A stretch of 64,000 nucleotides of DNA from Brooklawnia cerclae (GTDB lineage: Bacteria; Actinomycetota; Actinomycetes; Propionibacteriales; Propionibacteriaceae): NCBI RefSeq assembly GCF_011758645.1, contig NZ_JAAMOZ010000001.1, positions 2,108,001-2,172,000 of the forward strand, in the 5' to 3' direction. Shown one piece after another: positions 2,411 to 45,066 of the stretch; positions within the stretch are counted from its first letter, which is position 1; each line of letters starts with the position of its first letter. The translations under genes and the position numbers were made by a program. The notes beneath the pieces were generated by a model. The model saw only the letters and a program-made list of their open reading frames with translations. It had not been told where the DNA came from and ran no database searches.

Positions 2411-2436
2411 ACCATAGCCCGAGAGGGGAAAGCCGC

Positions 2437-3645: not shown

Positions 3646-3655
3646 GGAGCTGACC

Positions 3656-4087: not shown

Positions 4088-4100
4088 GGAGCCGCACACC

Positions 4101-5249: not shown

Positions 5250-5268
5250 CTGAGGGAGGCGTGCGGAC

Positions 5269-7591: not shown

Positions 7592-7685
7592 CCCAGACCG
7601 GACGGGCCGCCGCTGTGAGGGTCGGCGGCCCGTCCACTCCCCCAGCCCTCACGCCCAGAATCACACGAACCAGGAGAACCCTCAC

Positions 7686-8207: not shown

Positions 8208-8260
8208 TCGGAGGAGATCCGGCACTTCGCGCTGACATCGAGACCGCCCGCTCGCTCGGG

Positions 8261-8623
8261 GTGAGCCTGCGACGCTTCCTCGGCTGGGAGCAGCGCACCG
8301 TCACCGTCGAGCGGGACGGCCGGACCGTCACCACCGCCGAGCCCGAGTACGACGACTGGGAGCGCGCGATCCAGATCGCCTACGACGACTGGCGAGGCGA
8401 CGTCTGCCCCGACTGCGGCCAGCCCCTCAGTGTCTCCCTGCTCGACCGTGAGCATCCGGATGGCCACCGCTGGGTGGCCGGATTCCAGGAGTGCCGATCC
8501 TGTGCGGCCCTGGAGGAGGCCCGGCATAAGCAGTCCGAGACGGACGAGCAGCGCCGCAAAGTCTTCAAGGGAGTATTCATCCCCACCGGCCATCGCAGAT
8601 GGCATGTGAAGCGCATCGACTGA
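8261..8623 (+). CDS. Tail assembly chaperone T part (zinc-ribbon, probable frameshift product)
   Basis: The frame encodes SLRRFLGWEQRTVTVE, then DWERAIQIAYDDW, and two CxxC pairs (CPDCGQ and ECRSCAALEEARHK) that look like a zinc ribbon. Related frames sit between G and tape measure genes in many actinobacterial phages. The frame is open back to 8177, in the minus-one frame relative to the G gene, and overlaps its end. The only start codon in the usual place is GTG 8261, which lacks a well-placed ribosome-binding site, so production as a G-T fusion is more likely than independent translation. The coordinates given are for the part beginning at GTG. Confidence 0.6.
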   Translation: MSLRRFLGWEQRTVTVERDGRTVTTAEPEYDDWERAIQIAYDDWRGDVCPDCGQPLSVSLLDREHPDGHRWVAGFQECRSCAALEEARHKQSETDEQRRKVFKGVFIPTGHRRWHVKRID

Positions 8624-8648
8624 CAACTACATCGCGGGGGGTGGGCTC

Positions 8649-11558: not shown

Positions 11559-11567
11559 GAGGGGCGC

Positions 11568-12425: not shown

Positions 12426-12434
12426 GGTGACCTG

Positions 12435-13565
12435 ATGGCACTGGCGTGGATCGCGTGCGAATCGACGACCGGGGAGCCGATCTGCGACCTGCCAGACCTG
12501 AGCATCGACGAGATCGGCTCCACACTGTGCGGCTACTGGTCCGGGCCCGGATCGCTCCCGATTCCCGGAGCGCCAGCGGACTGGCGGCGCGCCATCGCCC
12601 CGTGGGCCAGCTATCTCGTCCTCCTCGACGACGACACTCCCGTCTGGGGGGGATGGACGACGTCCAGCAAGCTGACCGAGGACGACGAGGCGACATTCGG
12701 GGTCGCATCGTGGGAGGCGCACCTCGCCAAGCGCTACTGCGGAAACACCGCCTACAATGCCGTCGCCGAGACCCAGATCGTCGCCGGAGTCCTCGCCTCC
12801 TATGTCGCCGACGGCGGCCCGGCGATGCTCGTCGAGGTGCTGTCCGACTCGGCGGCAGGTGACCTCAACGTTTCCGACGCCGATGACCGAACCGTTCTGT
12901 CGGTGCTCTCCGAGATATCCGGCCGGGAGGGCGGCCCGGAGTGGACCGTGACATGGCGGCATCTGACCGGCCCGGAGCGCTACATCCCCGTCGTGCAGGT
13001 CGCGCCACGCATCGGGCAGACGGTACCCTCCGGGTTCGCCCCGTCGGCTGTCTTCGACATGCCCGGATGCCTGTCCAGCTTCGAGCGCGGCGAGGACTGG
13101 GCGGACGGCAAGGGCGCTAACGACGTGATGGCGACGGCTGTCGCCGACGGAAACGACCGTCTCACCTCCGGCCATTTCGCTTTCAACGATCCCGACCGGC
13201 CGAAACTCGAATACCGGTGGACGCCGTCGACCTCGATCACCGAGGAGTCCACGCTCCGGTCGCACGCCGCGTCCAAGCTGGCCGTCGCCAAGGACGGCGC
13301 GACCACATGGTCGCTGTCCGCTGCCGTCGAGTCCGCCCCCCGGCTCGGCGTCGACTGGAGCGTCGGCGACGATATCGGCTACTCCATCGCTCATCCGTCG
13401 GTGTCCGATCCGCTCCGCGACACGTCCGGGGCACAGGTCGCCGACTCCGAAGGCCGCCCGCTGTGGCAGCCGGTCACCGGCACCGCCCGCTGCATCGGCT
13501 GGAAGCTCACCCTGTCCGGAGTCCAGACGGTCACCCCGATCCTGCACGACGCCGAGGAGGTCTGA
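12435..13565 (+). CDS. Minor tail protein, baseplate hub-like
   Basis: A 376-residue protein after the Dit-like gene, in the position of the Gp37/tail-lysin hub of actinobacterial siphoviruses. It opens with a strand-rich region holding two cysteines, then WASYLVLLDDDTPVWGGW near residues 53-73 (a common feature of hub proteins that reads as a strand-turn-strand) and FGVASWEAHLAKRY. The C-terminal third has GVDWSVGDDIGYSIAHPSVSD and ends in a final VQTVTPIL strand. No catalytic peptidase motif is visible. It probably forms the trimeric hub below the Dit ring. Role inferred from order and pattern. Confidence 0.65.
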   Translation: MALAWIACESTTGEPICDLPDLSIDEIGSTLCGYWSGPGSLPIPGAPADWRRAIAPWASYLVLLDDDTPVWGGWTTSSKLTEDDEATFGVASWEAHLAKRYCGNTAYNAVAETQIVAGVLASYVADGGPAMLVEVLSDSAAGDLNVSDADDRTVLSVLSEISGREGGPEWTVTWRHLTGPERYIPVVQVAPRIGQTVPSGFAPSAVFDMPGCLSSFERGEDWADGKGANDVMATAVADGNDRLTSGHFAFNDPDRPKLEYRWTPSTSITEESTLRSHAASKLAVAKDGATTWSLSAAVESAPRLGVDWSVGDDIGYSIAHPSVSDPLRDTSGAQVADSEGRPLWQPVTGTARCIGWKLTLSGVQTVTPILHDAEEV

Positions 13566-13567
13566 CA

Positions 13568-14194
13568 GTGGCGAATCTCGCCGACGTGATGCCGTCCGGA
13601 GACGGATGGATGGTCCAGGACATCGCCAAAATGAAGACCGACCAGGCCGAGGCGCTCGCGGCGATCCGCAGCAGCTTCGCAGGGCCTATCGACTTCTTGC
13701 TTCACCAGACCCAGTTCTCCGAGGCGTCGCCGGGATCAGCGACCGCGCTGACCTTCGACCCGCTCACCGCCGACATCCCCCTGACGTGGGTAGCCTTCGA
13801 CGCCGCAGCCGACGCGACACTGGAGGTGACGACGTCGTCGACGGGGAGCATCTCCTACCAGTGCGGAGGGATGCTGATCGCCGGATCGCGCTATGGAGCC
13901 ACGACGATCGCCACGATCGGCATGGAGGTGATGGATGAGAACGGCATCCAGCTTCGCCCGCCGCAAAACGGGGATGGGAACTACAGCCACGTCTTCGTCG
14001 GCACCTCGGAGCTTGTGCGGGTCGCGAACGCCGGATCAGGTCACATGCACCGGCTGGACATGATGCCGCACACGACATACGTGCTGCGATGCCGACGTGG
14101 CTATCAGGCGACCCCGTACAGCGGCATTACCACTGGCGGCGCGCAAGTGATCTTCCAGGGCACGGCGCTGACCGTCACCAAGCTCGGAATCTGA
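13568..14194 (+). CDS. Minor tail protein, unknown fold
   Basis: A 208-residue protein; the GTG at 13568, three bases after the previous stop, is the start because the upstream part of the frame only shadows the hub gene. The N-terminal 45 residues are helical (VMPSGDGWMVQDIAKMKTDQ), probably a trimerising stalk, followed by beta-rich sequence with repeated Gly/Thr turns. This short-helix plus beta-sandwich layout is common in lower baseplate or receptor-binding proteins. It lies between the hub and the longer tail fibre gene. Function beyond a virion role cannot be read from sequence. Confidence 0.6.
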   Translation: MANLADVMPSGDGWMVQDIAKMKTDQAEALAAIRSSFAGPIDFLLHQTQFSEASPGSATALTFDPLTADIPLTWVAFDAAADATLEVTTSSTGSISYQCGGMLIAGSRYGATTIATIGMEVMDENGIQLRPPQNGDGNYSHVFVGTSELVRVANAGSGHMHRLDMMPHTTYVLRCRRGYQATPYSGITTGGAQVIFQGTALTVTKLGI

Positions 14195-14203
14195 GGAGGA
14201 CGC

Positions 14204-15196
14204 ATGACAATCCACGCGTGGCCGCTCGACGCGGTCGACGGCTCCCCGGCCTATCACGGCCGGAGTCTGCGTCTGGCCGGTCTGGCCCCGCTGATGCCGG
14301 GTGCGACGGCGACTCGCCCGCTGGGCGGGGTGTCGTGTGTGCGGCCTGGGACCCCCGACAGCGTGCTGGCAGCGTCGAGCACGCAGGTGACGCTCCATCC
14401 GCACGCCGGGCAGATCGATATCGGGCTGGGCCTGTCGGGGCCGTACGGGTATGCGGTGGAGGCCGACGAACAGGTGGCGTTGTCGGCGGCGCACGCGTCG
14501 TACACCCGCTGGGATCTCGCCTATCTGACCCTCAACGATCCGGCGGAGGGCGGCACCGGCTCGGCTCCGGAGGTGACGTTCCATGTGGCGGTCGGCACGG
14601 CCGCCGCGTCTCCTGCCGATCCGGCGGTCCCGTCGGACGCGCATCTGGTGCTGGGCCGTGTCGTGGTGCCGCCTGCCGGGACCGGCGATCCGTCGGTGGT
14701 GTGGCTGGCTCCGCGTATGGCGGGCGCTGACGGCGTCCCCCACTTCGCCACCGCGTCCGCCCGTGACGCCGCGGTCCCGTCCCCGTGGGCCGGGCAGGCG
14801 GCGACGACCGGCAGCGGATCGGGATTGTCGTGGTGGGTGCATGACGGCAGCCAGTGGGAGCAACTTGCTCGACTGTGGAGGGCTGCGGGTGACGGCGACG
14901 ATGTGGTGGCCGGTGGCCCGTGGCCGTCTGGCTCTCCGCTGCTGCTCCAGGTCGGCTCTGCGGTCATCTCACTCGATGTCAATGGTTACGGGTCGATCAC
15001 CTGGCCGCGTGCGTTCCCTAGCGGCCTCATCGGGTTCGTGGCCTTCAACGGAGACGGTGCTGCGCGGCCGAACGGCTATATCGTCCCGGGAACTGCGACC
15101 TCTGGCAGCGTGCAGGGTCACATCCGGATGATGGTCGGCGCTGCTGCTGTCGGGTCAGGCCAGGCGAGGGTGAACTACATTGCGGCGGGGTGGTGA
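14204..15196 (+). CDS. Tail fibre / receptor-binding-like protein
   Basis: A 330-residue beta-rich protein, the last large tail gene before lysis. The N-terminal two thirds contains WDLAYLTLNDPAEGG and a strand-rich TEVT-type barrel as in baseplate upper proteins (BppU-like). Around residues 175-240 it has the PHFATASARDAAVPSPWAG and GSGLSWWVHDGSQWEQL segments often seen at the neck of phage fibres. The C terminus (from about 250) forms a small Gly/Ser-rich head that could contact the receptor. ATG 14204 follows GAGGAGG. Codon use near 14,250-15,190 is richer in TCG/GTG than upstream, hinting at a modular origin. Confidence 0.6.
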   Translation: MTIHAWPLDAVDGSPAYHGRSLRLAGLAPLMPGATATRPLGGVSCVRPGTPDSVLAASSTQVTLHPHAGQIDIGLGLSGPYGYAVEADEQVALSAAHASYTRWDLAYLTLNDPAEGGTGSAPEVTFHVAVGTAAASPADPAVPSDAHLVLGRVVVPPAGTGDPSVVWLAPRMAGADGVPHFATASARDAAVPSPWAGQAATTGSGSGLSWWVHDGSQWEQLARLWRAAGDGDDVVAGGPWPSGSPLLLQVGSAVISLDVNGYGSITWPRAFPSGLIGFVAFNGDGAARPNGYIVPGTATSGSVQGHIRMMVGAAAVGSGQARVNYIAAGW

Positions 15197-15270
15197 GGGT
15201 GAACATGCCCGAGGAGCGCACCTCCGGCTGGTGCACCTGCAACCTGCCCTACATCACCGACGAGGACTGA
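15193..15270 (+). CDS. Possible 25-residue peptide between fibre and membrane protein genes
   Basis: A short frame from GTG 15193, overlapping the fibre stop, or from ATG 15205, ending at TGA 15268. From ATG it reads MPEERTSGWCTCNLPYITDE plus one residue, with a CTC cysteine pair. It fills the gap between the fibre gene and the next gene, whose start (MPEEHAEPW) repeats the MPEE opening, so a small duplication or start-site remnant is also possible. Short peptides in this slot are known in other phage groups. Supported by position only. Confidence 0.35.
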   Translation: MRVNMPEERTSGWCTCNLPYITDED

Positions 15271-15274
15271 GCCC

Positions 15275-15577
15275 ATGCCCGAGGAGCACGCCGAACCGTG
15301 GACGATGGGCGAGCTCGCCCGCTCCTACGAACGGTTAGCGGCGTCGGTCGAGAAGATCAACGACAAGCTCGACTCGGATCGCTTCGTGACCCGCGCCGAG
15401 TGGGAGCAGCGCATCACAGCCGTCGACGAGACGACGGCGCAGCTCCGGGCCGGACTGGAGGCCGTCAAGCCCGCGAAGACCCCCATCTGGCAGGTCGTGA
15501 CGGTCGGGATCTCGCTGGCCATGATGATGATCTCCCTCGTCGGGATGATCATCGCGCTGATCAACCTCGCGCCCTGA
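15275..15577 (+). CDS. Coiled-coil protein with C-terminal membrane segment (holin/haemolysin-XhlA-like)
   Basis: A 100-residue protein with a helical, charged N-terminal 70 residues (ELARSYERLAASVEKINDKL and later) and one strongly hydrophobic segment near residues 73-97 (VVTVGISLAMMMISLVGMII). The layout of coiled coil then C-terminal membrane helix resembles XhlA and DUF2746-type lysis-associated proteins. It lies directly before the endolysin gene, so it probably helps anchor or activate lysis together with the holin at 16.6 kb. A hairpin terminator follows. The ATG at 15275 is four bases after the small peptide frame. Confidence 0.65.
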   Translation: MPEEHAEPWTMGELARSYERLAASVEKINDKLDSDRFVTRAEWEQRITAVDETTAQLRAGLEAVKPAKTPIWQVVTVGISLAMMMISLVGMIIALINLAP

Positions 15578-15600
15578 GCCCACCCCCAGAACCACCTGCA

Positions 15601-15628
15601 AGCCCTCGCCATCCGGTGAGGGCTTTTC
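15601..15628 (+). terminator. Rho-independent terminator before the endolysin gene
   Basis: An inverted repeat, AGCCCTC, eight-base loop, then GAGGGCT followed by TTT, lies in the 77-base gap between the membrane protein gene and the endolysin gene. It would end or attenuate the tail transcript and may give the lysis genes lower or separate expression. No strong promoter is visible between it and ATG 15655. Confidence 0.7.
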
Positions 15629-15654
15629 TCGCGCCCGAAACCCAGGAGTGAAGC

Positions 15655-16626
15655 ATGAAGGACTGGGACAGTCTCATCGCCGACGTCGACAAGATCATCG
15701 GCGTCCACTACACCGCTGGCCGCGAGGGCAAGGCGATCAGCAAGATCGTCCTGCACCACAACGCCGGAACCCTGACCGTCGACCAGTGCTACGACGTGTG
15801 GCAGACCCGCGAGGCGTCCGCGCACTATCAGGTCGAGACCTCCGGCCGTATCGGCCAACTCGTCAACGATGTCGACACCGCCTGGCACGCCGGGGACTGG
15901 GCGACCAACCTCACCTCGATCGGCATCGAGCACGCCAACAACGCTCTTGCACCCGGCTGGACGATCAGCGAGGCGACCCTCGACAACGGGGCTCATCTCG
16001 TGGCCGCACTCTGCCGCCACTACGGGCTGGGGCGGCCGGCGTGGGGAATCAACGTCTTCCCCCACTCGCGGTTCTCCTCGACCTCATGTCCCGGCGCGAT
16101 CGCCGGGGCACAGAACACCGCCTACATGGCCCGCGCGCAGGCCTACTACGACGGCACCCAAACCACAACTCAGGAGGATGACGACATGGACGCAGAAACG
16201 AAGACGTGGATCAAGGAGACTCGGGACAGAGTCCTCGGTCTGGGCGTGCAGCGCTACGGCGCAGACGGCAGCCCCAACAGGGTCCTCGACACCGGCGACG
16301 GAGAGTACATCCTCAACGCGATCGGCAACGCCGTCACCGAGGTCTTCGAGCGGAGCTTCGACCGGGCGGGCGGGCCGACCGGCACCACCAATTTGCACCA
16401 GACCGTGGCCTGGCTGGACGCCAATCTCAACTCGATCCGGGATCTCATCAACGGCTTCCAGGCCCGGATTGCCGGGCTGGAGGAGGCCCTCAAGCAGGTC
16501 GGCGGCGGGACCGTCGACACCGACACCATCGTCGCGGCCGTCACCAAGGCCGTGTCCGATGCGATCGACGCCGAGATCGACTCGGCGACCGTCACCCTCA
16601 GCACCACACAGGAGGCACAGTCATGA
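15655..16626 (+). CDS. Endolysin, N-acetylmuramoyl-L-alanine amidase (Amidase_2)
   Basis: A 323-residue lysis enzyme. Residues 1 to about 165 form an Amidase_2/PGRP domain that cuts the amide bond between muramic acid and the stem peptide: IVLHHNAG (about 37-44) supplies one zinc His, SAHYQVETSGRIGQLV a strand, and FPHSRFSSTSCPG (about 137-149) the second His and the Cys ligand. Residues 178-323 are a helical, charged region unlike known wall-binding repeats. ATG 16186 inside the gene has a perfect AGGAGG ribosome-binding site (see the nested feature). The gene precedes the holin and its stop overlaps the holin start. Confidence 0.88.
   Translation: MKDWDSLIADVDKIIGVHYTAGREGKAISKIVLHHNAGTLTVDQCYDVWQTREASAHYQVETSGRIGQLVNDVDTAWHAGDWATNLTSIGIEHANNALAPGWTISEATLDNGAHLVAALCRHYGLGRPAWGINVFPHSRFSSTSCPGAIAGAQNTAYMARAQAYYDGTQTTTQEDDDMDAETKTWIKETRDRVLGLGVQRYGADGSPNRVLDTGDGEYILNAIGNAVTEVFERSFDRAGGPTGTTNLHQTVAWLDANLNSIRDLINGFQARIAGLEEALKQVGGGTVDTDTIVAAVTKAVSDAIDAEIDSATVTLSTTQEAQS
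16186..16626 (+). CDS. Nested in-frame C-terminal endolysin fragment (internal start)
   Basis: ATG 16186 is codon 178 of the endolysin, placed exactly where the amidase domain ends. AGGAGG at 16172-16177 lies eight bases upstream, an ideal spacing. The 146-residue product would be the C-terminal helical region alone (MDAETKTWIKETRDRVLGLG onward). Some endolysins are known to form complexes of full-length enzyme with extra wall-binding domains made from an internal start. The case here is inferred from the strong signal and its location at a domain border. Confidence 0.55.
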   Translation: MDAETKTWIKETRDRVLGLGVQRYGADGSPNRVLDTGDGEYILNAIGNAVTEVFERSFDRAGGPTGTTNLHQTVAWLDANLNSIRDLINGFQARIAGLEEALKQVGGGTVDTDTIVAAVTKAVSDAIDAEIDSATVTLSTTQEAQS

Positions 16627-31775: not shown

Positions 31776-33167
31776 TCAGGCCCTCGACGCCTCCAGCTCC
31801 TCGGCATGCTCCAGCACCGCGGCGACGACTCGATCGTCGTCCAACCCGAGCCACCCGCACACCCCGCGTACGGACGAGGCCAGGTCACCTGCCACCAAAG
31901 GCAGCACCGGGGCGGCACCGGCGTCGTCCACCGGCGCGCCGAGCCCGCGCAGGTGCAGCACCCAGCCCGCCACGGCACGGGTGGCCCCCTTCGCCACAAT
32001 CCCCTGCCCCAGGAGCGCCTTGATCGTCGGCACGATGCGGATCGGCAACTTCTGCGACCCGTCCATCGCGATGCGCGCCAACTGGTCCTTCATCCGCGGG
32101 TTGCCGAAGCGCTCCAGCAGCGAGGCCCGGTAGGCGTCCAGTTCCTCGGCGGGAAGCGGCACCTGGGTGACGGCGTCGTCCCACCACTGTTCGACCCAGC
32201 CCCGCACACGCGGGTCGCTGATGGCCTCGTAGACGGTGGTGCGCCCGATGACGGACGCGCAGTAGGCCATCAGGGAGTGGGATCCGTTGAGCAGGTAGAG
32301 CTTGCGGAGCTCGTGCGGGACGATGTCGTCGACGAACGCGGCTCCCATCGACTCCCAGTGGGGGCGTCCCGCCTTGAACTCGCCGGCCAGCACCCATTCG
32401 GTGAACGGCTCGGTGACGACAAGACCCGGGTCCTCGATGCCGGTGGCGGCCTCGACGCGCTCACGGTCGTCGTCGGTCGCACGCGGCGTGATGCGATCGA
32501 CCATGGTGGTGACGAAACCGACGTTGGCGTCGATCCAGTCGAGCAGAGTGGCATCGACGTACTCCGCGCCCTGCCGGATGACCCGCTCGGCCATCTCGCC
32601 GTTGTTGGGGATGTTGTCGCAGGGCACGAACGTGATCGGCCCAGCCTCCGCCTGCCTGCGCGCGAGCAGTCCGCGCACGAACTTCGCGGGCCCGGTGAAG
32701 ACCGGCACGTCGAGGCGGCCGGCCCGCAGCTTGTCGAGGTCGGCGATCACGTCGGGGTTCCCGAGATCGAGGTTTCCGTCCTTGTCACGGCAGTACCCGG
32801 CCTCGGTGATGGTCGAGGTGACGATGGCAACGTTGGGGTCGGCGAACAGTTCGACCCAGCTGGTGATGTCGTGCGAACGGAACGTGGCGCTCACCGAACT
32901 GATCACCTCGACCTGGTCACCCTCGGCGTTCTTGATGACCAACTGGTACAGCCCGTCCTGGGCGTCCAGGGCATCGTCGCGGGGCGAGGGCCTCGGCACC
33001 AGGGTCGTGCGCCCCGGGAATCCCGCGATCCCCCACTCGTCCGCGTCGGACGCGTGCTCGGTGTACCAGGCCTGATGGGCACGGGTGAAGTTGCCGATGC
33101 CCAGATGGATGATGCGGATGGGCGCGGCGGGGCGTCCGTACTCGGCTCTGTTGAGGGTTGCACTCAC
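31776..33167 (-). CDS. uxuB: D-mannonate oxidoreductase (fructuronate reductase)
   Basis: A 463-residue member of the mannitol dehydrogenase family, which reduces D-fructuronate to D-mannonate with NADH. The Rossmann region has IIHLGIGNFTRAHQAWYT (about residues 19-36), and later ITEAGYC and FVPCDNIPNNG motifs are conserved. A Lys of the catalytic centre lies in RKLYLLNGSHSLMAY. The family also includes tagaturonate reductase and mannitol dehydrogenase; here the neighbouring uxaC gene, whose start overlaps this gene's upstream partner, supports the uronate role. Start ATG 33167 overlaps the uxaC stop by four bases. Confidence 0.85.
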   Translation of the reverse strand: MSATLNRAEYGRPAAPIRIIHLGIGNFTRAHQAWYTEHASDADEWGIAGFPGRTTLVPRPSPRDDALDAQDGLYQLVIKNAEGDQVEVISSVSATFRSHDITSWVELFADPNVAIVTSTITEAGYCRDKDGNLDLGNPDVIADLDKLRAGRLDVPVFTGPAKFVRGLLARRQAEAGPITFVPCDNIPNNGEMAERVIRQGAEYVDATLLDWIDANVGFVTTMVDRITPRATDDDRERVEAATGIEDPGLVVTEPFTEWVLAGEFKAGRPHWESMGAAFVDDIVPHELRKLYLLNGSHSLMAYCASVIGRTTVYEAISDPRVRGWVEQWWDDAVTQVPLPAEELDAYRASLLERFGNPRMKDQLARIAMDGSQKLPIRIVPTIKALLGQGIVAKGATRAVAGWVLHLRGLGAPVDDAGAAPVLPLVAGDLASSVRGVCGWLGLDDDRVVAAVLEHAEELEASRA

Positions 33168-34579
33168 AGCTTGAACACTTTCTTGGGATTGTCGACGACG
33201 AGCTTGCCGGCCTGCTCGATCGCCTCGTCCTCGTCCAGACGATGGACGGCGACGAGACCTGCCAGGTGCACCGCGTCGAGGCGTCGCATCATGTCGTGGC
33301 GGGCCGGGATCGAGCAGAACGCACGCGTGTCATCGATCATGCCAGACACGCGGCTGAACCCGCCCATCTCGGTGATCGCCTGCTTGAACCGCAGGATCGA
33401 CTCGGGGGCGTCGATGAACCACCATGGGACGCCGATGTAGACCGACCGGTAGAACCCCGCCAGTGGGGCGATCTCGCGGCTGTACACATCCTCGTCGAGC
33501 GTGAAGATCACCAGGTTGAGGTTGGGATGGTTGCCGAAGGCGTTGAGCATCTCCCTCGTCGAACGCGTGACCTCGATGGCGTAGGGGATGTCGCAGCCGA
33601 CGTCCTGCCCGTACTTCTCGAAGGTGGCCCGGTCGTGGTCGCGCAGCGCCCCCGGATGCAGGGTCATGGTGAGGCCGTCCTCGGTCGCCATGCGCACCTG
33701 GTCCATGAGCAGGTGGCGCCGCAGCGCCGTGGCTTCCTCCGGGGCGATGCCGCCGCCGCGCGCCTTGCCGAACAGGCGCTCCGCCTCCTGCGCGTCGAGG
33801 TACCCGGCCTCCAGGTCGGTCAGGCCATGGTCGGTGCTGACCGCACCGTGCTGCTTGAAGTAGGCACGCCGGCTCTCCAGCGCGGCGGTGAAGCCCGCGA
33901 GGGTGCCGGTGTCGATGCCGGTCACCTGGGCCAGTCGGTCGGCCCGCTCGTTCCAGTCGGCGCGATCGGGCTCCAGATACTTGTCGGGACGAAACGTCGG
34001 CGCCACCCGGTGCGTCGCCGAGAACGCCGCGTCCGCGGCCAGCTTCTCGTGATCGTGCAGGTCATCGCAGGGATCGTCGGTGGTCGCGATGAACTCGATC
34101 CTGAACTGGTCCATGAGGGCGCGCGGACGGTGGGTCTCGTCGTCGATCCAGGCCTGGATGGTGTCGTAGATCGCGTCCGCGGTCTCGGCACTGGGACGCT
34201 GCGTCACGCCGAACAGGCCGACGAGCTGATCGGTCAGCCAATAGCGCATCGCGGTGCCGTTGAAGTCGGACCAGTGCTCGCACAGCAGGCGGAAGGCGCG
34301 GCGGTTGTCGGCCTCGTCCATGTCCTCGCGTCCCACACCGAGTTCCGACAGTTCGGCACCGTTGGCGTGCAGCACTCGGTTGATGTAGTGGTCGGGGGTC
34401 AGCAGGAGCTTGGTCGGATTCTCGAACGACAGGTTGTCCGCGATCCAGGCCGGGGGCACGTGCCCGTGGGGAGAGATGATCGGAAGGTCACGGGTTTCGG
34501 CGTAGATCCGCCTCGCGATCCCGCGGACTTTGTCGTCCGCGGGGAAGAGGCGATCGTCGTGCATTGACAATTGGGCCAT
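33164..34579 (-). CDS. uxaC: Glucuronate/galacturonate isomerase
   Basis: A 471-residue uronate isomerase, first step of hexuronate breakdown: D-glucuronate to D-fructuronate. The N-terminal PIISPHGHVPP (residues 33-43) gives the metal-binding His pair of this amidohydrolase-fold family, and conserved segments such as DGLTMTLHPGALR follow. Length fits the E. coli enzyme. The start at 34579 (MAQLSMHDDRLFPADD) is chosen; upstream in-frame codons are unlike the family. It forms an operon with uxuB and is divergent from the LarA-like gene. A galacturonate role is possible, since UxaC acts on both. Confidence 0.88.
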   Translation of the reverse strand: MAQLSMHDDRLFPADDKVRGIARRIYAETRDLPIISPHGHVPPAWIADNLSFENPTKLLLTPDHYINRVLHANGAELSELGVGREDMDEADNRRAFRLLCEHWSDFNGTAMRYWLTDQLVGLFGVTQRPSAETADAIYDTIQAWIDDETHRPRALMDQFRIEFIATTDDPCDDLHDHEKLAADAAFSATHRVAPTFRPDKYLEPDRADWNERADRLAQVTGIDTGTLAGFTAALESRRAYFKQHGAVSTDHGLTDLEAGYLDAQEAERLFGKARGGGIAPEEATALRRHLLMDQVRMATEDGLTMTLHPGALRDHDRATFEKYGQDVGCDIPYAIEVTRSTREMLNAFGNHPNLNLVIFTLDEDVYSREIAPLAGFYRSVYIGVPWWFIDAPESILRFKQAITEMGGFSRVSGMIDDTRAFCSIPARHDMMRRLDAVHLAGLVAVHRLDEDEAIEQAGKLVVDNPKKVFKL

Positions 34580-34742
34580 GGGGCCAATTCTGAGACAACG
34601 CCCCCGCAGCCGCTTCCCGGGTTGCCAGGAGTTGCCACGTCCGGCCCCCAGTGGACGCCACATCAGGGCCGACCGGCGCTAGCCTTGGGGCAACCGACTG
34701 CACCTGTCGCAGTCATGACCGCAGCCCCGGATGAGGAGTCCC

Positions 34743-36029
34743 ATGTCCCTGCCCACCACCTGTCCGCCCAACATCGGCGGCCCCGGCTATCACATCGGGG
34801 ACGAGGAGTTCGAGGGCTTCGTGGCCGACGCGATCGGCCAGGTGGACCTGGAGGGCAAGAGCCTGTGCCTGATCATCCCGGACGACACGCGCGGCTGCCC
34901 GATGCCGCGCATCCTGCACGCCGTCCACAAGGCCGTGATCGGCCGGGCGGCGAGCGTGACCGCGGTCATCGCGCTCGGGACGCACGAGTACATGGAACCG
35001 GACGAGATCGCCCTGTGGACCGCCGGCGACGCCAATGCCGACCTCGACGAGGTGTACCCCGGCATGCCGATCGTCAACCACCTGTGGAAGGACCCCGAAC
35101 AGCTGGTCAGCGTCGGCACCATCTCCGCCGAGCGCATCCACGAGTTGTCCGGGGGGCGCCTGCGACAGGGCTCCGACGTGCTCATCAACCGCACGGTGGT
35201 GGACGCGGACGTGAAGATCATCGTCGGCCCGATCCTGCCCCACGAGGTCGTGGGCATCTCGGGCGGCAACAAGTACTTCATCCCCGGCTGCGCGGCGCAC
35301 GATCTCATCGACATGACGCACTGGGTCGGCGCGCTCATCACCTCCGCCAAGATGATCGGCACCCCCGGCATCACACCCGTGCGGGCGATGATCAACGAGG
35401 GCGCCCACCTCATTCCCGGCGAGAAGTACTGCCTCGCCTTCGTGGTGAAGGCCTACAGCATGGACCTCGAGTCGGCCGCCTTCGGCAGCCCCGAGGACGC
35501 CTGGGCCAACCAGGCCCAGGTCACCGCACAGACCCACATCACCTACGTGGACGAGCCCTTCACCAATGTGATCGCTCAGATCCCCGAGCGCTACCACGAC
35601 ATCTGGACGGCTGCCAAGGGGTTCTACAAGACCGAGCCCGCGGTCGCCGACGGCGGCGAGGTGATCATCTACGCCCCGCACATCGACACCGTGTCCGAGG
35701 CTCACAAGGAGATCTACGAGATCGGCTACCACTGCCGCGACTACTTCGTGAAGCAGTGGGACACCTTCAAGGACGTGCCATGGGGTGTGCTGGCGCACTC
35801 GACGCACGCGCGCGGTGCGGGCACCTTCGACCCGGCGACGGGCGTGGAGGACTGCCGTCTGCGGGTGACGTTCGCCACCCGTATCCCACCCGAGGTGTGC
35901 GCGTCCATCAATGTCGGCTACCGCGACCCGGCGACCATTCCGGCCCTCATGGACGACCCGGCGTTCCACGTCGTCCGCGACGCGGGTGAGGTGCTCTTCC
36001 GCCTGGCATCGGAACGTCCCCAGCAGTGA
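34743..36029 (+). CDS. LarA-like nickel-pincer racemase/epimerase
   Basis: A 428-residue member of the LarA (lactate racemase) superfamily, which uses a nickel-pincer nucleotide cofactor to racemise 2-hydroxy acids. Residues that match L. plantarum LarA in order and spacing: Asp47 and Arg50 in PDDTRG, His81 in GTHEY, His167 in ILPHE, Lys177 in GGNKYFIPG (cofactor anchor, ten residues after the His as in LarA), and His193 sixteen residues later. A basic residue near 292 also fits. Start ATG 34743 has GAGGAG upstream. The family includes lactate racemase and a D-gluconate 2-epimerase; the neighbouring uronate genes favour an aldonate substrate (see finding). Confidence 0.85.
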   Translation: MSLPTTCPPNIGGPGYHIGDEEFEGFVADAIGQVDLEGKSLCLIIPDDTRGCPMPRILHAVHKAVIGRAASVTAVIALGTHEYMEPDEIALWTAGDANADLDEVYPGMPIVNHLWKDPEQLVSVGTISAERIHELSGGRLRQGSDVLINRTVVDADVKIIVGPILPHEVVGISGGNKYFIPGCAAHDLIDMTHWVGALITSAKMIGTPGITPVRAMINEGAHLIPGEKYCLAFVVKAYSMDLESAAFGSPEDAWANQAQVTAQTHITYVDEPFTNVIAQIPERYHDIWTAAKGFYKTEPAVADGGEVIIYAPHIDTVSEAHKEIYEIGYHCRDYFVKQWDTFKDVPWGVLAHSTHARGAGTFDPATGVEDCRLRVTFATRIPPEVCASINVGYRDPATIPALMDDPAFHVVRDAGEVLFRLASERPQQ

Positions 36030-36085
36030 GCGGGCCCGCCCCGTCCGGGCGGCCGGAAAAGCGATCGATCGATCCGACCGGGGGC

Positions 36086-37090
36086 TCAGGCCTTGGGAGC
36101 CGGTCCGGTCGACTCGCGGATGATGAGCCGCATCGGCAGTATGGACGGCTTTTCGGGGGTCGTCTCGGGAGGCTGGCGGTTCACCAGGGCGATGACGGTA
36201 CGCGCCCCGCGTTCCCCCAGGAGACTCAACGGGGAGGCCACCGTCGTCAAACCCGGTGTGACCAGGTCGGACGCGAAGATGTTGTCGAAGCCGACCACCG
36301 ACAGGTCACCGGGGATCGACAGCCCCTGTGCCTTGGCCGCACGCATGATCCCGATGCTGATGAGGTCGTTGTAACAGACCACGGCGGTCACACGGCGGTC
36401 GCGGATGTGCGGCAGGATGCCCATGCCGCCGCGAACCGTCGGCGGCGTCGGGCCGATCCGATGCTCCACCAGGTCGAGTTCGTAACAGCCCTCGCGGAAT
36501 GCCCGCCATCGTGCGCCGTCCGACCAGGACGCCGTGGGGCCCGACACGTAGGCGACCTGCCGGTGCCCGAACTCCGCGAGATGCTCGAGCGCCCGGCGCA
36601 TGCCGCGGGCCATGTCGGTGATGACGCAGGGCAGCCCGGGCACCAGGCGGTTGAGGACGACGGTCGGCGTCGACTTCGCCGCAGCGCGAAGGGCCGCGTC
36701 CGACAGCCTGGACGCGGCGATGATCATGCCGTCGAGCAGTGGCATCGTCCGCTCGAGGAGTTGCCGCTCGTAGTCGTCGGTCTCCTCGGAGTCCGAGAGC
36801 ATCATCTGGTAGCCCTCGGCAACGGCGACGTGCTCGGCACCGCGGATGATGCTGAAGAAGTACGGATTCGTGATGTCGGTGAGCCCGATGCCCAGCATCT
36901 TCGACTGCCGGCCGACCTCCTCGCGCACGACGCGGGGGGCGCGATATCCCAGCTCCGTGGCCACCTGCTGGATGCGCGCGGCGGTTCGCGAACTCACCCG
37001 TCCGGGGCGCGAGAACGCCCGCGAGACGGTGGAGGGGCTCACTCCGGCAGCGGCGGCGACATCGTAGATCGTCGCTGGTTTGTCCGACAC
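36086..37090 (-). CDS. LacI-family transcriptional regulator
   Basis: A 334-residue LacI/GalR repressor. The N-terminal DNA-binding helix-turn-helix is clear (ATIYDVAAAAGVSPSTVSRA, residues 6-25, then PGRVSSRTAARI), with hinge, followed by a periplasmic-binding-like ligand domain (TDITNPYFFSIIRGAEHVAV). The start GTG 37090 (VSDKPATIYDV) is chosen; the longer upstream frame is not LacI-like. It lies between the LarA-like gene and gnd and is divergent from gnd, so it probably controls the sugar-acid cluster with a uronate or gluconate-related inducer. Operator sites were not identified with confidence. Confidence 0.88.
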   Translation of the reverse strand: MSDKPATIYDVAAAAGVSPSTVSRAFSRPGRVSSRTAARIQQVATELGYRAPRVVREEVGRQSKMLGIGLTDITNPYFFSIIRGAEHVAVAEGYQMMLSDSEETDDYERQLLERTMPLLDGMIIAASRLSDAALRAAAKSTPTVVLNRLVPGLPCVITDMARGMRRALEHLAEFGHRQVAYVSGPTASWSDGARWRAFREGCYELDLVEHRIGPTPPTVRGGMGILPHIRDRRVTAVVCYNDLISIGIMRAAKAQGLSIPGDLSVVGFDNIFASDLVTPGLTTVASPLSLLGERGARTVIALVNRQPPETTPEKPSILPMRLIIRESTGPAPKA

Positions 37091-37384
37091 CGAAGGTTCT
37101 CCCACCCGACAAACTGTATCCGACCTCTCCCAGAGGGGGTCCGGTACCAACTGGCGAGCCCGCTTGACAAACCGCCCATTTTCGACGACTCGGGCTGTCG
37201 GCTCGCTCGATTGGCCGTAGCGTTGGAGGTCGGGGACACCACGGGGCCGAGCACAGGAGGAGCCGGATCAACACCCCGGGGCATCCACGGGCAGGCGTCC
37301 CCGAAGCCCCCGATCCCACCACGGTGGTGCACGAAGTAACCAACAGGGAGCACCTGCTCACCACACAACAAGGAGAATGAACCA
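37091..37384. promoter_or_regulatory. Divergent promoter region between the LacI regulator and gnd
   Basis: A 294-base gap. A TTGACA-like minus-35 at about 37164 points toward gnd, but no convincing minus-10 follows. AAGGAGAAT lies just before the gnd ATG (37385). No obvious perfect LacI palindrome was found, so control elements here remain to be mapped. Confidence 0.4.
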
Positions 37385-38830
37385 ATGTCAGATGAGAAGG
37401 CCAACATCGGCGTCGTCGGCATGGCGGTGATGGGCTCGAACCTGGCCCGGAACCTCGCCCACCACGGGTACGCGGTTGCCATCTACAACCGCACCTTCGC
37501 CAAGACCCAGGCGGTCATGGACGAGCACGGCAGCGAGGGAACGTTCATTCCTGGTGCGACCGTCGAGGAGTTCGTCGCCTCGATCGCGCACCCGCGGTCG
37601 ATCATCCTCATGGTCAAGGCGGGCGCCGCCACCGACGCGACGATCGAGGAGCTGCTCCCCTACCTGGAACCGGGCGACATTATCGTGGACGCCGGCAACT
37701 CGTTCTTCCGCGACACCATCCGCCGCGAGAAGGAGATCTCGGAGAAGGGCTTCCACTTCGTCGGCACCGGCGTGTCCGGCGGCGAGTACGGCGCCCTGAC
37801 CGGCCCGTCGATCATGCCCGGCGGCACCCCCGAGAGCTACACGGTGCTCGGGCCCATGCTGGAGGCGATCTCCGCGCACGTGGGCGACGAGCCCTGCTGC
37901 ACCTGGATCGGCCCCAACGGTGCCGGACACTTCGTCAAGATGATCCACAACGGCATCGAATACTCCGACATGCAGGTGATCGGCGAGGCCTACGAACTCC
38001 TCAAGGCCGCGGGCATCGGCACCGACGAGGCCGCCGCGATCTTCAAGACGTGGAACCAGGGCGAACTGTCCAGCTACCTCATCGAGATCACAGCCGATCT
38101 CCTCCAGCAGGCCGATCCGCAGACCGGTGCCCCGCTGGTCGACGTCATCAAGGACCGCGCGGGCATGAAGGGCACCGGCACGTGGACCGTCACGACCGCC
38201 CTGGAGCTCGGCGTGCCCGTCAACGGGATCGCCGAGTCGGTCTTCGCACGCGCCGAATCGAGCCACGACGACCTGCGCAGGGTCGCCCAGACGAGCCTCC
38301 AGGGCCCCGACCGCACCCTGCAGGTGCCCGACAAGGACGCCTTCGTCGAGGACGTGCGCCGGGCGCTGTGGGCCTCCAAGGTCGTCGCCTACTCCCAGGG
38401 CTTCGACGAGATCCGCACCGGTGGGCAGGAGTTCGGCTGGAACATCAACGTCGCCGACTGCGCCAAGATCTGGCGTGACGGCTGCATCATCCGCGCGAAG
38501 CTCCTGGAGAACATCCGTCAGGAGTACTCGGCCAGCCCCGACCTCGTGTCGCTGATGTGCGCACCGTCCATCGCCCCGCAACTGGCCGACTACCAGGACG
38601 CGTGGCGTCGCGTCGTCGCGGCAGCGGCCCAGGCGGGAGTTCCCGCGCCGGTGTTCTCGAGCTCGCTGGCCTACTACGACATGGCACGTGCCCCGCGGAA
38701 CAACGCCGCGGTCACCCAGGGCCTGCGCGACTACTTCGGATCGCACACCTACGAACGCGTCGACGCCGCCGGTCACTATCACCTCGAGTGGTCGGGTGAT
38801 CGTTCGGAGATCAAGACCTCCGACAACTGA
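37385..38830 (+). CDS. gnd: 6-phosphogluconate dehydrogenase (decarboxylating)
   Basis: A 481-residue oxidative pentose phosphate enzyme, converting 6-phosphogluconate to ribulose 5-phosphate with reduction of NADP. The N-terminal Rossmann motif GVVGMAVMGSNLARNL (residues 9-24) and NRT (36-38) bind the coenzyme; VSGGEYGALTGPSIMPGG is the substrate signature, and KMIHNGIEY carries the catalytic Lys185 and Glu192 plus Asn189. The GxGxxG is GxxGxxG as in this family. It is preceded by a strong ribosome-binding site and followed by a hairpin terminator. It is the likely sink for gluconate derived from uronates in this cluster. Confidence 0.95.
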   Translation: MSDEKANIGVVGMAVMGSNLARNLAHHGYAVAIYNRTFAKTQAVMDEHGSEGTFIPGATVEEFVASIAHPRSIILMVKAGAATDATIEELLPYLEPGDIIVDAGNSFFRDTIRREKEISEKGFHFVGTGVSGGEYGALTGPSIMPGGTPESYTVLGPMLEAISAHVGDEPCCTWIGPNGAGHFVKMIHNGIEYSDMQVIGEAYELLKAAGIGTDEAAAIFKTWNQGELSSYLIEITADLLQQADPQTGAPLVDVIKDRAGMKGTGTWTVTTALELGVPVNGIAESVFARAESSHDDLRRVAQTSLQGPDRTLQVPDKDAFVEDVRRALWASKVVAYSQGFDEIRTGGQEFGWNINVADCAKIWRDGCIIRAKLLENIRQEYSASPDLVSLMCAPSIAPQLADYQDAWRRVVAAAAQAGVPAPVFSSSLAYYDMARAPRNNAAVTQGLRDYFGSHTYERVDAAGHYHLEWSGDRSEIKTSDN

Positions 38831-41794: not shown

Positions 41795-42259
41795 ATGTCG
41801 GACAAGGAACCACGGTGGCTCTCGGCGGAGCAGCAGACCGTGTGGCGGGACTGGCTCTCCGCGGTCGCCCGCATCAACGAGCAGCTCGATGCTGACCTGC
41901 GCCCACACAATCTCGATCTCAACGAATACGAAGTCCTCGTCGTCCTCTCCGAATCCCCTGATCACCAGGCGCGCATGTCGCAGCTGGCGGAGGCGTCCAA
42001 CCAATCGCGGTCGCGGTTGACCCACACGGTGGGACGCATGGAGGCCGCCGGCCTCATCAAGCGCCAGACGGCTGCCGACGACAGGCGAGGCGTCGTGGCC
42101 CTGCTGACCACCAAGGGATTCGACCTGCTGAAGACGGCCGCTCCCGACCATGTCGAGTCCGTGCGGCGCGTGTTGGTCGACCGGATCGATCCGGCTGACT
42201 GGGAATCGCTCGGTCGTGCCATGAAGGCTGTGCTCGAGGGGGCGGAATCGTCCAGATGA
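41795..42259 (+). CDS. MarR-family regulator
   Basis: A 154-residue winged-helix regulator. The wHTH is clear in RMSQLAEASNQSRSRLTHTV (about residues 60-79) and the wing ADDRRGVVALLTTKG follows, with dimerising helices at both ends. Start ATG 41795 gives the family length; upstream codons of the same frame are non-coding. The last bases overlap the start of the D-lactate dehydrogenase-like gene (ATGA). It lies divergent from the acyl-CoA synthetase gene, so it may regulate both sides, probably in response to a small carboxylic acid or aromatic compound. Confidence 0.88.
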   Translation: MSDKEPRWLSAEQQTVWRDWLSAVARINEQLDADLRPHNLDLNEYEVLVVLSESPDHQARMSQLAEASNQSRSRLTHTVGRMEAAGLIKRQTAADDRRGVVALLTTKGFDLLKTAAPDHVESVRRVLVDRIDPADWESLGRAMKAVLEGAESSR

Positions 42260-45066
42260 CGACCACGGTCACGACGTCGCAGACCCTGGCGTCCTTCCGG
42301 GATCTCCTGCCGGACGATTCCTGCCTCGACGAGTCCACGCTGGCGCGCGCCCTCTACTCGTCCGACGCATCGATCTATCGCGTGGTCCCGCAGGTCGTCG
42401 CCCGTCCCCGGTCGACCGACGAACTCATCACGGTGGTGCGGGCCGCGCTGAAGGCGGGTCTGCCGATCACCGGTAGAGGTGCCGGCACGTCCTGCGCGGG
42501 TAACGCCGTCGGGCCCGGGCTCGTCATCGACATGGGACGCTACCTCGGCCACGTGCTGTCGGTGGATGCCGAGGCCGGCACCGCAGTGGTCGAACCCGGT
42601 GTCGTCCAGAGCTCTCTGCAGGCGGCCGTCCAACCGCACGGCTGGCGCTACGGGCCCGATCCGTCCACCAGCAACCGCTGCACGATCGGCGGGATGATCG
42701 GGAACAACGCCTGCGGGCCGCGGGCCCTCGGCTACGGCCGAAGCGCCGACAACATCGTCGAACTGGAGGTCGTGACCGGCACAGGTGAGCTCGTCACGCT
42801 GCGTCCGGGCTTGCGGGGCGGGGTCTTCGATCAGCTGCGCACCCTCGTGGACGCCAACCTCGCGACGATACGCAAGGAGTTCGGGCAGTTCTCGCGACAG
42901 GTCTCGGGGTACAGCCTCGAGCACCTGCTCCCCGAGCACGGCTTCGACGTCGCGAGCTTCTTCGCGGGCACCGAGGGCACCCTGGGCATCATCACCAGGG
43001 CCACCGTCCGCCTCGTCCGGGACGCCCCGCTCAAGACCACCGTCGCCCTCGGCTACCCGACCATGGCCGACGGGGCCGATGCGATGCCCCGGCTGCTGCC
43101 GTTCAAGCCCACCGCCTGCGAGGGCATGGACCGGCGCCTGTCGAATGTCGTGGCGGAGCGGCTCGGCCCGCGGTCCGTGCCCGATCTTCCCGTCGGTGAC
43201 GCCTGGCTGTTCATCGAGTTGGTGGGCGACGACGCGTCCGAGATCGCGGGACGCGCCCAGGGGCTCGTCGAGGCCTCCGGGGCCACCGAGGGGTGGGTCG
43301 TGGACGATCCGGCCCAGGCCGCGCGGCTGTGGGGCATCCGCAGCGACGCCGCGGGGCTCGCCGCCGTCGCGCTCGAGAAGCGCGCCCACGCGGGCTGGGA
43401 GGACTCAGCCGTTCCGCCCGCCCGGCTGGGCGCCTACCTTCGCGATTTCGAGGCCAACCTGGAGCGCTTCGGCCTGCACGGCCTGCCCTACGGGCACTTC
43501 GGCGACGGGTGCGTCCACTGCCGTATCGACTTTCCTCTGGACTCCGAGGGCGGCACCAAGGTGCTGCACGACTTCATGGTCGAGGCGGGCAAGCTCGCCG
43601 CGAAGTACGGCGGGTCGATGTCGGGCGAGCACGGGGACGGGCGCGCGCGCAGCGAGTTGTTGCCGCTGATGTACTCCCCCGGTGCGCTGCGTCTCTTCGG
43701 CGCGGTCAAACAGCTCTTTGACCCGGGCAATCTGCTCAACCCGGGCGTGCTCGTCGATCCCGATCCGCTCGCCGAGCGGGTGCGCATCGCCGACGCACGG
43801 TTGTCTCCGCTGTCACTGGCGGCACCCGGCTTCGCGAGCGACGTTCACCGGTGCACGGGCGTCGGCAAGTGTCTGGCGAACACCACTCGCTCGGGGGCGG
43901 TCATGTGCCCCAGTTTCCAGGCGACGCGCAACGAGAAGGACTCGACCCGCGGCCGGTCCCGCGTCCTGCAGGAGATGGTCAACGGAACGCTGGTCTCGGG
44001 GGGCTGGCGCTCGCCCGAGGTCGCTGAAGCGCTGGAGCTCTGCCTGGCGTGCAAGGGATGTCGCCATGACTGCCCCACGGGCACCGACATGGCCGCGTAC
44101 AAGTCCCGCGTCCTCTACGAGCGCCACAAGGGACGCCCACGCCCGCTCTCGCACTACGCGCTCGGCTGGCTGCCGCGCTGGGGGCGGCTGCTGACGAAGC
44201 TTCGCCTCGGCTGGCTCGCCAACCTCGGCACCCAGACGCCGGGCCTCAAGCACGTGATCCGCGCCGTCGCCGGGGTCGACCAGCGGCGACCGATGCCACG
44301 GTTCCGGTCGGGTCGGGCGGCGAGTCACGAGCACGGCGAACGGCCGCGGACGTCGCCCACCCGCGGACCGGTCGCGGTATGGGTCGACTCGTTCACGGAC
44401 GCGTTCGCCGGCGGGCAGCTCGCCGCCCTGGTGAAACTGCTCGTCAGTGTCGGGTACGACCCTCGCATCATCACACAGGACGCGTGCTGCGGCCTCACCT
44501 GGATCACGACCGGCCAACTCGACGGCGCACGGCGACAGCTGCGGCACGCCCTCGATGTGCTGACCCCGATCGCCACCGAGGGCATTCCGATCGTCGGCAT
44601 GGAGCCGAGCTGCATGGCCGTGTGGCGCAGCGACGCCGCCGAACTGCTGCCGGACGACTCCCGCGTCCAGCTTGTCGCCGGGGGCATCCACACCCTGGCC
44701 GAGCTGCTCGGCTCGTTGGACGACTGGACGCCCCCGGACCTCGCCGGGCACACGATCGTGGCCCAGCCGCACTGCCACCACTCGTCGGTGCTCGGTTGGG
44801 ACGCGGACGCCCGTCTGCTCGCCCGAACGGGCGCCGACGTCGTCACCCTGGGCGGCTGCTGCGGCCTGGCCGGCAACTTCGGCGTCGAGCGAGGTCACTA
44901 CGAGGTGTCGGTGAAGGTGGCCGAGCACGACCTGCTGCCGGCGATCCGTGCCGCGGGGCCGGATGCGATTGTCCTGGCCGACGGGTTCAGCTGCCGCAAG
45001 CAGGTGGCCGATCTCGAGGGACGCCAGGCCATCACCCTGGCGCAGTTGCTCGCGTCCCACTACTGA
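42256..45066 (+). CDS. FAD/Fe-S D-lactate dehydrogenase-like oxidoreductase (Dld-III type)
   Basis: A 936-residue fused protein. The N-terminal half is a GlcD/Dld-type FAD domain (GRGAGTSCAGNAVGPG near 73-88, then PHGWRYGPDPSTSNRCTIGG) and FAD-linked oxidase C domain. The second half has ferredoxin-type Cys motifs (CTGVGKCLAN near 532 and CLACKGCRHDCPTG near 595) and two CCG repeats (QDACCGL and LGGCCGLAG) as in heterodisulfide reductase/GlpC-like subunits. Such proteins oxidise D-lactate or related 2-hydroxy acids and pass electrons to quinone. D-lactate is the best guess; D-2-hydroxyglutarate or glycolate are alternatives. Confidence 0.82.
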   Translation: MTTTVTTSQTLASFRDLLPDDSCLDESTLARALYSSDASIYRVVPQVVARPRSTDELITVVRAALKAGLPITGRGAGTSCAGNAVGPGLVIDMGRYLGHVLSVDAEAGTAVVEPGVVQSSLQAAVQPHGWRYGPDPSTSNRCTIGGMIGNNACGPRALGYGRSADNIVELEVVTGTGELVTLRPGLRGGVFDQLRTLVDANLATIRKEFGQFSRQVSGYSLEHLLPEHGFDVASFFAGTEGTLGIITRATVRLVRDAPLKTTVALGYPTMADGADAMPRLLPFKPTACEGMDRRLSNVVAERLGPRSVPDLPVGDAWLFIELVGDDASEIAGRAQGLVEASGATEGWVVDDPAQAARLWGIRSDAAGLAAVALEKRAHAGWEDSAVPPARLGAYLRDFEANLERFGLHGLPYGHFGDGCVHCRIDFPLDSEGGTKVLHDFMVEAGKLAAKYGGSMSGEHGDGRARSELLPLMYSPGALRLFGAVKQLFDPGNLLNPGVLVDPDPLAERVRIADARLSPLSLAAPGFASDVHRCTGVGKCLANTTRSGAVMCPSFQATRNEKDSTRGRSRVLQEMVNGTLVSGGWRSPEVAEALELCLACKGCRHDCPTGTDMAAYKSRVLYERHKGRPRPLSHYALGWLPRWGRLLTKLRLGWLANLGTQTPGLKHVIRAVAGVDQRRPMPRFRSGRAASHEHGERPRTSPTRGPVAVWVDSFTDAFAGGQLAALVKLLVSVGYDPRIITQDACCGLTWITTGQLDGARRQLRHALDVLTPIATEGIPIVGMEPSCMAVWRSDAAELLPDDSRVQLVAGGIHTLAELLGSLDDWTPPDLAGHTIVAQPHCHHSSVLGWDADARLLARTGADVVTLGGCCGLAGNFGVERGHYEVSVKVAEHDLLPAIRAAGPDAIVLADGFSCRKQVADLEGRQAITLAQLLASHY

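Follow-up and report, generated by a model that had tools for sequence, protein, structure and literature searches.

How is D-glucuronate used by a gene cluster that encodes the uronate isomerase UxaC and a UxuB-like fructuronate reductase together with a LarA-superfamily protein, a LacI-family regulator and a decarboxylating 6-phosphogluconate dehydrogenase (Gnd)? This question is raised by a locus of Brooklawnia cerclae (contig NZ_JAAMOZ010000001.1) situated in a stretch of 64 kb, here called the window, among whose genes uxuA, kdgK and eda, the genes for mannonate dehydratase and for the kinase and aldolase of 2-keto-3-deoxygluconate (KDG) metabolism, were not found. A preliminary description of this DNA had listed the five clustered genes, all of which we confirmed in place (Table 1), and had regarded the LarA-like protein as a 2-epimerase of the gluconate type which might connect D-mannonate to D-gluconate and the pentose phosphate pathway. 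Our analysis favors this route from glucuronate via mannonate, gluconate and 6-phosphogluconate to Gnd by means of a GntE-type epimerase, to which we assign a probability of about 0.72.

According to this proposal, UxaC would convert D-glucuronate to D-fructuronate, as is known for its family, and the UxuB-like reductase, again judged by its family, would reduce D-fructuronate to D-mannonate. By homology to the proven GntE, the LarA-like enzyme is then predicted to use the nickel-pincer nucleotide (NPN), presumably supplied by LarE, LarB and LarC of the genome, for an inversion at C2 by hydride transfer which would yield D-gluconate. A kinase encoded outside the cluster would form 6-phosphogluconate, and Gnd would decarboxylate it to ribulose 5-phosphate. 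The LacI-family protein probably controls the divergent uxaC-uxuB/gntE promoter via a tandem GTTGCCA repeat, and the whole route would exist beside a separately placed UxuA/KDG pathway in the same genome.

Identity of the LarA-like protein

The LarA-like protein exceeded the Pfam cut-off for Lar_N (78.5 bits) and gave no match to the Pfam model LarA_C. Its top NCBIfam model was NF052594 (NPN_18_hexonate, putative hexonate epimerase) with 142.2 bits at a cut-off of 500, and it stayed far below all NCBIfam LarA cut-offs shown. The closest solved structure by sequence was 4NAR, the GntE2 protein of Thermotoga maritima (E = 1.1e-54, compared to 1.5e-07 for the malate racemase Mar2), an enzyme whose conversion of D-mannonate into D-gluconate has been demonstrated (PMC7583248). 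Similarly, an AlphaFold model of the window protein (pLDDT 93.6, based on an alignment of 41 sequences) ranked 4nar first in Foldseek with a TM score of 0.86 and an E value of 1.6e-40, followed by a lactate racemase at 5.3e-23. The six residues that had been singled out before, Asp47, Arg50, His81, His167, Lys177 and His193 (numbered from the ATG at 34743), are indeed present and, together with Lys292, invariant in 81 of 81 proteins in an alignment of the window protein with those of 80 homologue loci; they correspond to the catalytic or NPN-binding residues D72, R75, H108, H174, K184, H200 and K298 of LarA. Equally invariant in all 81 proteins are the loop E168-V169 following the catalytic histidine, which is Glu-Val as opposed to Phe-Phe in lactate racemase, and W288 in helix 11. 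A loop of Glu-Val/Ser combined with a tryptophan in helix 11 is described for groups 18-20 of the LarA superfamily (PMC7583248). From the nearest structure by both sequence and fold and from the preserved residue signature, we strongly infer that the protein is a GntE-type 2-epimerase, as the preliminary description had supposed.

A function as lactate or malate racemase, with the position beside uxaC being incidental, would agree with the shared superfamily and fold. It is, however, very improbable given the conserved uronate neighborhood described below and the scores of the protein, which reached 64.1 bits with the lactate racemase model NF033504 (cut-off 460) and 93 and 79 bits with two malate racemase models (cut-offs 500 and 462, respectively). 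In addition, the genome possesses a separate lactate racemase LarA (contig C1, 580 kb; 618 bits, cut-off 460), and on the basis of this gene and the low score an identity as lactate racemase was rejected.

Gene neighborhoods and co-occurrence in related genomes

A contig scan yielded 170 relatives of the LarA-like protein, and the neighborhoods of the best 80 loci, mostly from Actinobacteria with four from Chloroflexota and one from Nostoc, were searched by tblastn using proteins of the window, of its own genome and of the loci themselves as queries. The flanks extended up to 10 kb, with at least 5 kb on both sides in 55 loci and less in the remaining 25, so that all counts are lower bounds. 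UxaC was identified in 55 of the 80 loci, in 43 of them within 3 kb, UxuB in 50 and a LacI-family match in 49 (44 at an identity of at least 39%), followed by LarE (29), LarC (27), LarB (26), Gnd (21), GH2 (17) and FGGY kinases (16), while UxuA occurred in none. Both UxaC and UxuB are present in 46 loci; 24 of these also possess an FGGY kinase or Gnd, eight possess both, and at least one of larB, larC and larE accompanies 19. The whole set of UxaC, UxuB, GntE, FGGY kinase, Gnd, LarB, LarC and LarE was found in five loci (L021, L023, L024, L030, L042). The association of the LarA-like gene with UxaC and UxuB is far beyond chance, and the comparison of neighborhoods that the preliminary description had advised thus revealed a conserved linkage, with gluconokinase-like kinases and Gnd in part of the relatives. 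The single GH2 protein scanned was identified as beta-glucuronidase with 891 bits (cut-off 544), and the single GPH transporter scanned exceeded the GPH cut-off, with glucuronide transporters being closest.

The FGGY kinases of L010, L013 and L016 scored 347-349 bits as gluconokinase and 261-277 bits as xylulokinase, both under cut-off. At five further loci (L027, L048, L067, L071, L072), the gene for a 357-residue PfkB protein is adjacent to uxuB or placed between gnd and the LarA-like gene; by NCBIfam this protein is related to KDG kinases, with scores under the cut-offs. Neither UxuA nor Eda was matched in the five loci, and Gnd is present in four of them. Across the 80 loci, the KDG-kinase query was matched in seven and the aldolase in two. 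This PfkB protein, like its relative in the window's own genome described below, is a candidate gluconate or mannonate kinase. A mannonate kinase might also act first, in which case the LarA-like enzyme would epimerize 6-phosphomannonate to 6-phosphogluconate. Such a kinase-first order has been measured in extracts of Lactobacillus suebicus, with the genes unknown (PMC6978723), and the kinases near the homologues are of FGGY or PfkB types with a specificity that is only predicted. Nevertheless, we consider it unlikely, as D-mannonate in its unphosphorylated form is a substrate of both GntE1 and GntE2 (PMC7583248) and the three FGGY kinases scanned are most like gluconokinases.

The GntE-type enzyme would use the NPN cofactor, and the larBCE genes that the preliminary description had suggested to look for are present: larE, larB and larC lie in one run at about 2,077,595-2,080,472 of C1, and all three exceed their NCBIfam cut-offs. 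In a sample of 147 genomes of the same family, for which the statistics were not corrected for kinship, GntE and LarC occurred together in 50 genomes, GntE only in 13, LarC only in 13 and neither in 71. The corresponding numbers for GntE and UxaC were 60 with both, three with GntE only, 28 with UxaC only and 56 with neither, and UxaC was located within 2 kb of 39 of the 64 GntE matches and within 12 kb of 46. Among the 88 genomes with UxaC, 48 possess GntE only, 18 UxuA only, 12 both and ten neither (Fisher p = 8e-5, uncorrected for kinship as before). As a control, Corynebacterium glutamicum gave matches for the UxaC, LarC, 6-phosphogluconate dehydrogenase and GntK models (for the latter, two of five matching genomes were over the cut-off, the side on which C. 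glutamicum falls not being stated) and none for the UxuA and PF01081 models, which is the gene set that the route predicts.

Points against the route and alternative explanations

A number of results weigh against the proposed route, and the first of these come from the genome itself. The preliminary description had reasoned from the absence of UxuA and the enzymes of KDG metabolism. This absence holds true for the cluster but not for the genome, and the argument built on it is therefore lost. A uxuA gene over the cut-off of the mannonate dehydratase models is located on C1 at 2,562,626-2,563,681, and genes for DctP and for a GntR/FCD regulator are next to it. A KDG-kinase-like gene of the PfkB type, which does not reach the cut-offs for KDG kinase, lies together with an aldolase for 2-keto-3-deoxy-6-phosphogluconate (KDPG), over cut-off, at 33-35 kb of C5, and a second aldolase, of the type acting on the corresponding galactonate derivative (KDPGal), is found with KduI at 2.64 Mb of C1. 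Moreover, GntK (TIGR01313) has no match in the genome. Of the nine FGGY kinases (eight scanned, one of them in two pieces), the one encoded ahead of transaldolase, zwf and opcA has gluconokinase as its best-scoring model, and its gene is split by an in-frame TAG. The interruption (L111:9286-10815, stop near 2,278,679 of C1) might be a real loss, an assembly error or something else; OpcA of this operon scored 133 bits, under its cut-off of 256. A close orthology of the genome's FGGY kinases to the cluster-encoded FGGY kinase of L010 was rejected, the best identity being 29%. The genome does encode a full-length PfkB kinase outside the cluster (C1 904,137-905,210; L113:9138-10211) that is 63% identical to the PfkB kinase of the five related clusters and has the PfkB kinase 4gm6 and the KDG kinase 2afb as its nearest PDB chains; its gene adjoins an azoreductase-like gene. 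In the search for a gluconate kinase suggested at the outset, GntK was missing, the FGGY candidate of the zwf operon was interrupted and a relative of the PfkB cluster kinases was present, and the kinase is the weak link of the proposed route in this genome.

The same observations would fit a different reading, in which the flux passes through the canonical UxuA/KDG pathway and the sole role of the LarA-like gene is to admit D-gluconate to it by conversion to mannonate. UxuA, the KDG-kinase-like gene and Eda are present, a GntP-like permease (234 bits, under the cut-off of 293) is encoded at a distance of about 7 kb from uxuA, and the genome lacks a GntK match and has its FGGY candidate interrupted. 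Such a role in gluconate entry is, however, about as unlikely as the kinase-first order: uxuA has genes for a GntR/FCD regulator and for DctP beside it, the cluster repeat described below was not found at the UxuA/KDG loci, and 48 of 60 UxaC-positive relatives with GntE are without UxuA.

Further points against the glucuronate-to-gluconate route concern its enzymes and their distribution. The UxuB-like protein remains below every NCBIfam cut-off, with 249 bits for fructuronate reductase (cut-off 603) and 272 bits for D-arabinitol dehydrogenase (cut-off 600). Twelve of the 80 loci, including all four from Chloroflexota, are without any of the partner genes sought (L018, L043, L045, L059, L074, L076, L078, L079, L082-L085); since several of these have full flanks of 10 kb, the LarA-like gene occurs in other settings as well. 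In L012 and L013, relatives of KdgK (73-74%) and Eda (66-68%) are located a few kb from the homologue. Across all 147 genomes, GntE and UxuA show no anticorrelation (p = 0.56), the effect being confined to UxaC-positive genomes, and of the eight genomes sampled from the window's own genus, seven possess both genes. LarC was not matched in 13 of the 63 GntE genomes. In the genus g7 (G006, G030, G048, G064, G078), this applies to five of the six genomes with GntE, two of which are 97-98% complete; another source of the cofactor, a missed LarC or an enzyme independent of NPN may be considered. In C. glutamicum, the Lar_N model had no match, perhaps for reasons of strain or sensitivity. Finally, GntE1 of this species is active on D-mannonate with a Km of 120 mM, and its native substrate was left open (PMC7583248).

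The latter point leads to the question of whether the LarA-like enzyme might act on another hexonate or aldarate, for example by converting glucarate to mannarate, with mannonate being left to UxuA. A conversion of glucarate to mannarate has been suggested for group 19 of the superfamily, and the Km of GntE1 for mannonate is high (PMC7583248). The presence of UxuA and KDG-type genes in this genome would agree with this, as would 16 loci, 11 of them of an Actinoplanes type, which have IolE-like and Gfo/Idh genes by the homologue. We regard this substrate assignment as quite unlikely, because Gnd, a gluconokinase-like kinase and beta-glucuronidase are part of some clusters and UxuA is part of none of the 80. 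In the Actinoplanes-type genomes (L022, L032, L037, L041, L047, L052, L053, L055, L058, L065), the homologue follows the Gfo/Idh- and IolE-like genes (each found in 16 of the 80 loci), and UxaC is located 8-9 kb away and carries paired, opposed GTTGCCA repeats; in L054, the IolE/Gfo genes are present without a match to UxaC. These loci represent a different cluster layout, perhaps for another substrate.

Promoter repeat, cluster layout and known systems

The divergent promoter between uxaC and the LarA-like gene, which are separated by a spacer of about 163 bases, contains a tandem repeat of the form GTTGCCA-N3-GTTGC (Table 1). Of 78 loci, 32 have an RTTGC-N5-RTTGC site ahead of the LarA-like gene, compared to 42 of 1560 random windows taken from the same loci. 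When all 5-base words were counted at the same spacing, GTTGC ranked top with 31 of 78 loci, and the best unrelated word reached five. In the relatives, the repeat also occurs beside the starts of uxaC, uxuB, lacI, GH2 and gnd. In its own genome, where about 151 kb of the 3.79 Mb as well as the window were scanned by a search that would miss more divergent repeats, it was not found in the stretches harboring uxuA, the kdgK-like gene and eda, the second eda, larECB, zwf, the lactate racemase gene and the PfkB kinase gene, the latter with 19.5 kb of surrounding sequence. The possibility raised in the preliminary description, that a uxuA/KDG pathway elsewhere is under the same regulator, is borne out as far as the genes or their relatives exist, but a shared regulator was rejected as the repeat of the cluster was not found there in the stretches scanned. 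LacI-family operators are usually palindromes. The repeat of the cluster is a direct repeat without a palindrome, and for this reason linking the LacI-family protein to the repeat is guesswork based on position. At the start of UxaC, an AATTGG near-palindrome was dropped after inspection by eye, as it overlaps the start codon.

Table 1. Positions of the clustered genes and the candidate operator within the window
Feature	Position	Strand	Basis
UxuB-like long-chain polyol/fructuronate reductase, mannitol dehydrogenase family	31776..33167	-	PF01232 and PF08125 over Pfam cut-off; PDB neighbors 1lj8 (mannitol dehydrogenase) and 4im7 (YdfI)
UxaC, uronate (glucuronate) isomerase	33164..~34579	-	NCBIfam NF002794, 515 bits (cut-off 387)
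GTTGCCAGGAGTTGCCA, candidate operator, a direct repeat within the divergent promoter of uxaC and larA	34621..34637	+	Sole RTTGC-N5-RTTGC site in the 64-kb window
LarA-superfamily nickel-pincer enzyme, GntE type, putative D-mannonate/D-gluconate 2-epimerase	34743..36029	+	4nar match, fold, residues
LacI-family transcriptional regulator, candidate regulator of the cluster	36086..37090	-	PF00356 and PF13377 over cut-off
Gnd, decarboxylating 6-phosphogluconate dehydrogenase	37385..38830	+	NF006765, 695 bits (cut-off 413)

Within the cluster, there is an overlap of four bases between uxuB and uxaC. The start of uxaC was set to the ATG conserved across four aligned relatives, and its product matches the uronate isomerase 2q01 in the PDB with an E value of 1.7e-111. 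Gnd is the single PF00393 match in the genome, and the cluster copy therefore also serves ordinary metabolism. Elsewhere in the window, positions 50-16626 are occupied by prophage structural and lysis genes, with six of seven scanned proteins matching PHROGs (portal, head morphogenesis, head maturation protease, major head/protease, tape measure and endolysin). The gene at 42256-45066 encodes a protein of 936 residues that combines FAD-oxidase, 4Fe-4S and CCG domains, a set of the kind seen in D-lactate or D-2-hydroxyacid dehydrogenases; a lactate racemase is also encoded in this genome.

Taken together, the preliminary interpretation is partly supported. Going further, it might be hypothesized, tentatively and with more doubt than confidence, that many Actinobacteria possess a self-contained glucuronide regulon which bypasses UxuA and KDG into the pentose phosphate pathway. 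Such a regulon might comprise beta-glucuronidase, a glucuronide transporter, UxaC, UxuB, an NPN-dependent GntE with its own LarBCE, a kinase, Gnd and LacI, be switched via the tandem GTTGCCA repeat and include, in a subset, an undescribed PfkB-type gluconate/mannonate kinase related to KDG kinase. If true, this would bear on the open question of the cellular role of actinobacterial GntE enzymes such as GntE1, and nickel and the NPN cofactor would be necessary for the use of glucuronides in Actinobacteria without UxuA. The repeat would provide a DNA signature for finding the regulon, and a genetically defined route from uronates to ribulose 5-phosphate would be at hand, a type of route that Valk 2020 reportedly wanted for metabolic engineering.

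The idea of the route as such is not new, and the activity of GntE is established in vitro (Desguin 2020). A coupling of mannonate to gluconate was proposed for T. maritima by Rodionova 2012, and gntE of this species is located between the genes for fructuronate reductase and gluconate kinase (both as cited in PMC6978723); the excerpted text of a paper on T. maritima regulons (PMC3750489) does not mention mannonate. A eukaryotic GntE has been described as well (PMC11770544). Our literature search yielded no article dealing with the route in Actinobacteria. The window protein shares with T. maritima GntE2 (LarAH20) the fold, the residues H174, K184, H200 and K298 (LarA numbering) covered by the alignment, the glutamate of the loop and the tryptophan of helix 11. 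It differs in having 36% identity over 312 aligned positions, a Glu-Val instead of a Glu-Ser loop and, as judged by eye from the alignment, Gly348 instead of Asn348, and the T. maritima control matches UxuA and PF01081 as well. C. glutamicum GntE1 (LarAH19) is similarly actinobacterial and is described with the same signature class and, for group 19, with a uronic acid gene context (PMC7583248), but it has a very high published Km for mannonate, and its native substrate was left open. NPN_18_hexonate is the best NCBIfam match of the window protein, yet its cut-off is not reached. The pathway of L. suebicus likewise connects the upper isomerase steps with 6-phosphogluconate, but phosphorylation comes first in it (PMC6978723). 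With the canonical UxaC-UxuB-UxuA-KdgK-Eda pathway, the cluster has the first two steps in common, and its epimerase takes the place expected for UxuA, although uxuA is located elsewhere in the genome. Thus, the chemistry and the route idea are already known from these systems, and the additions made here are the actinobacterial module, the repeat in its promoter and the alternative kinase.

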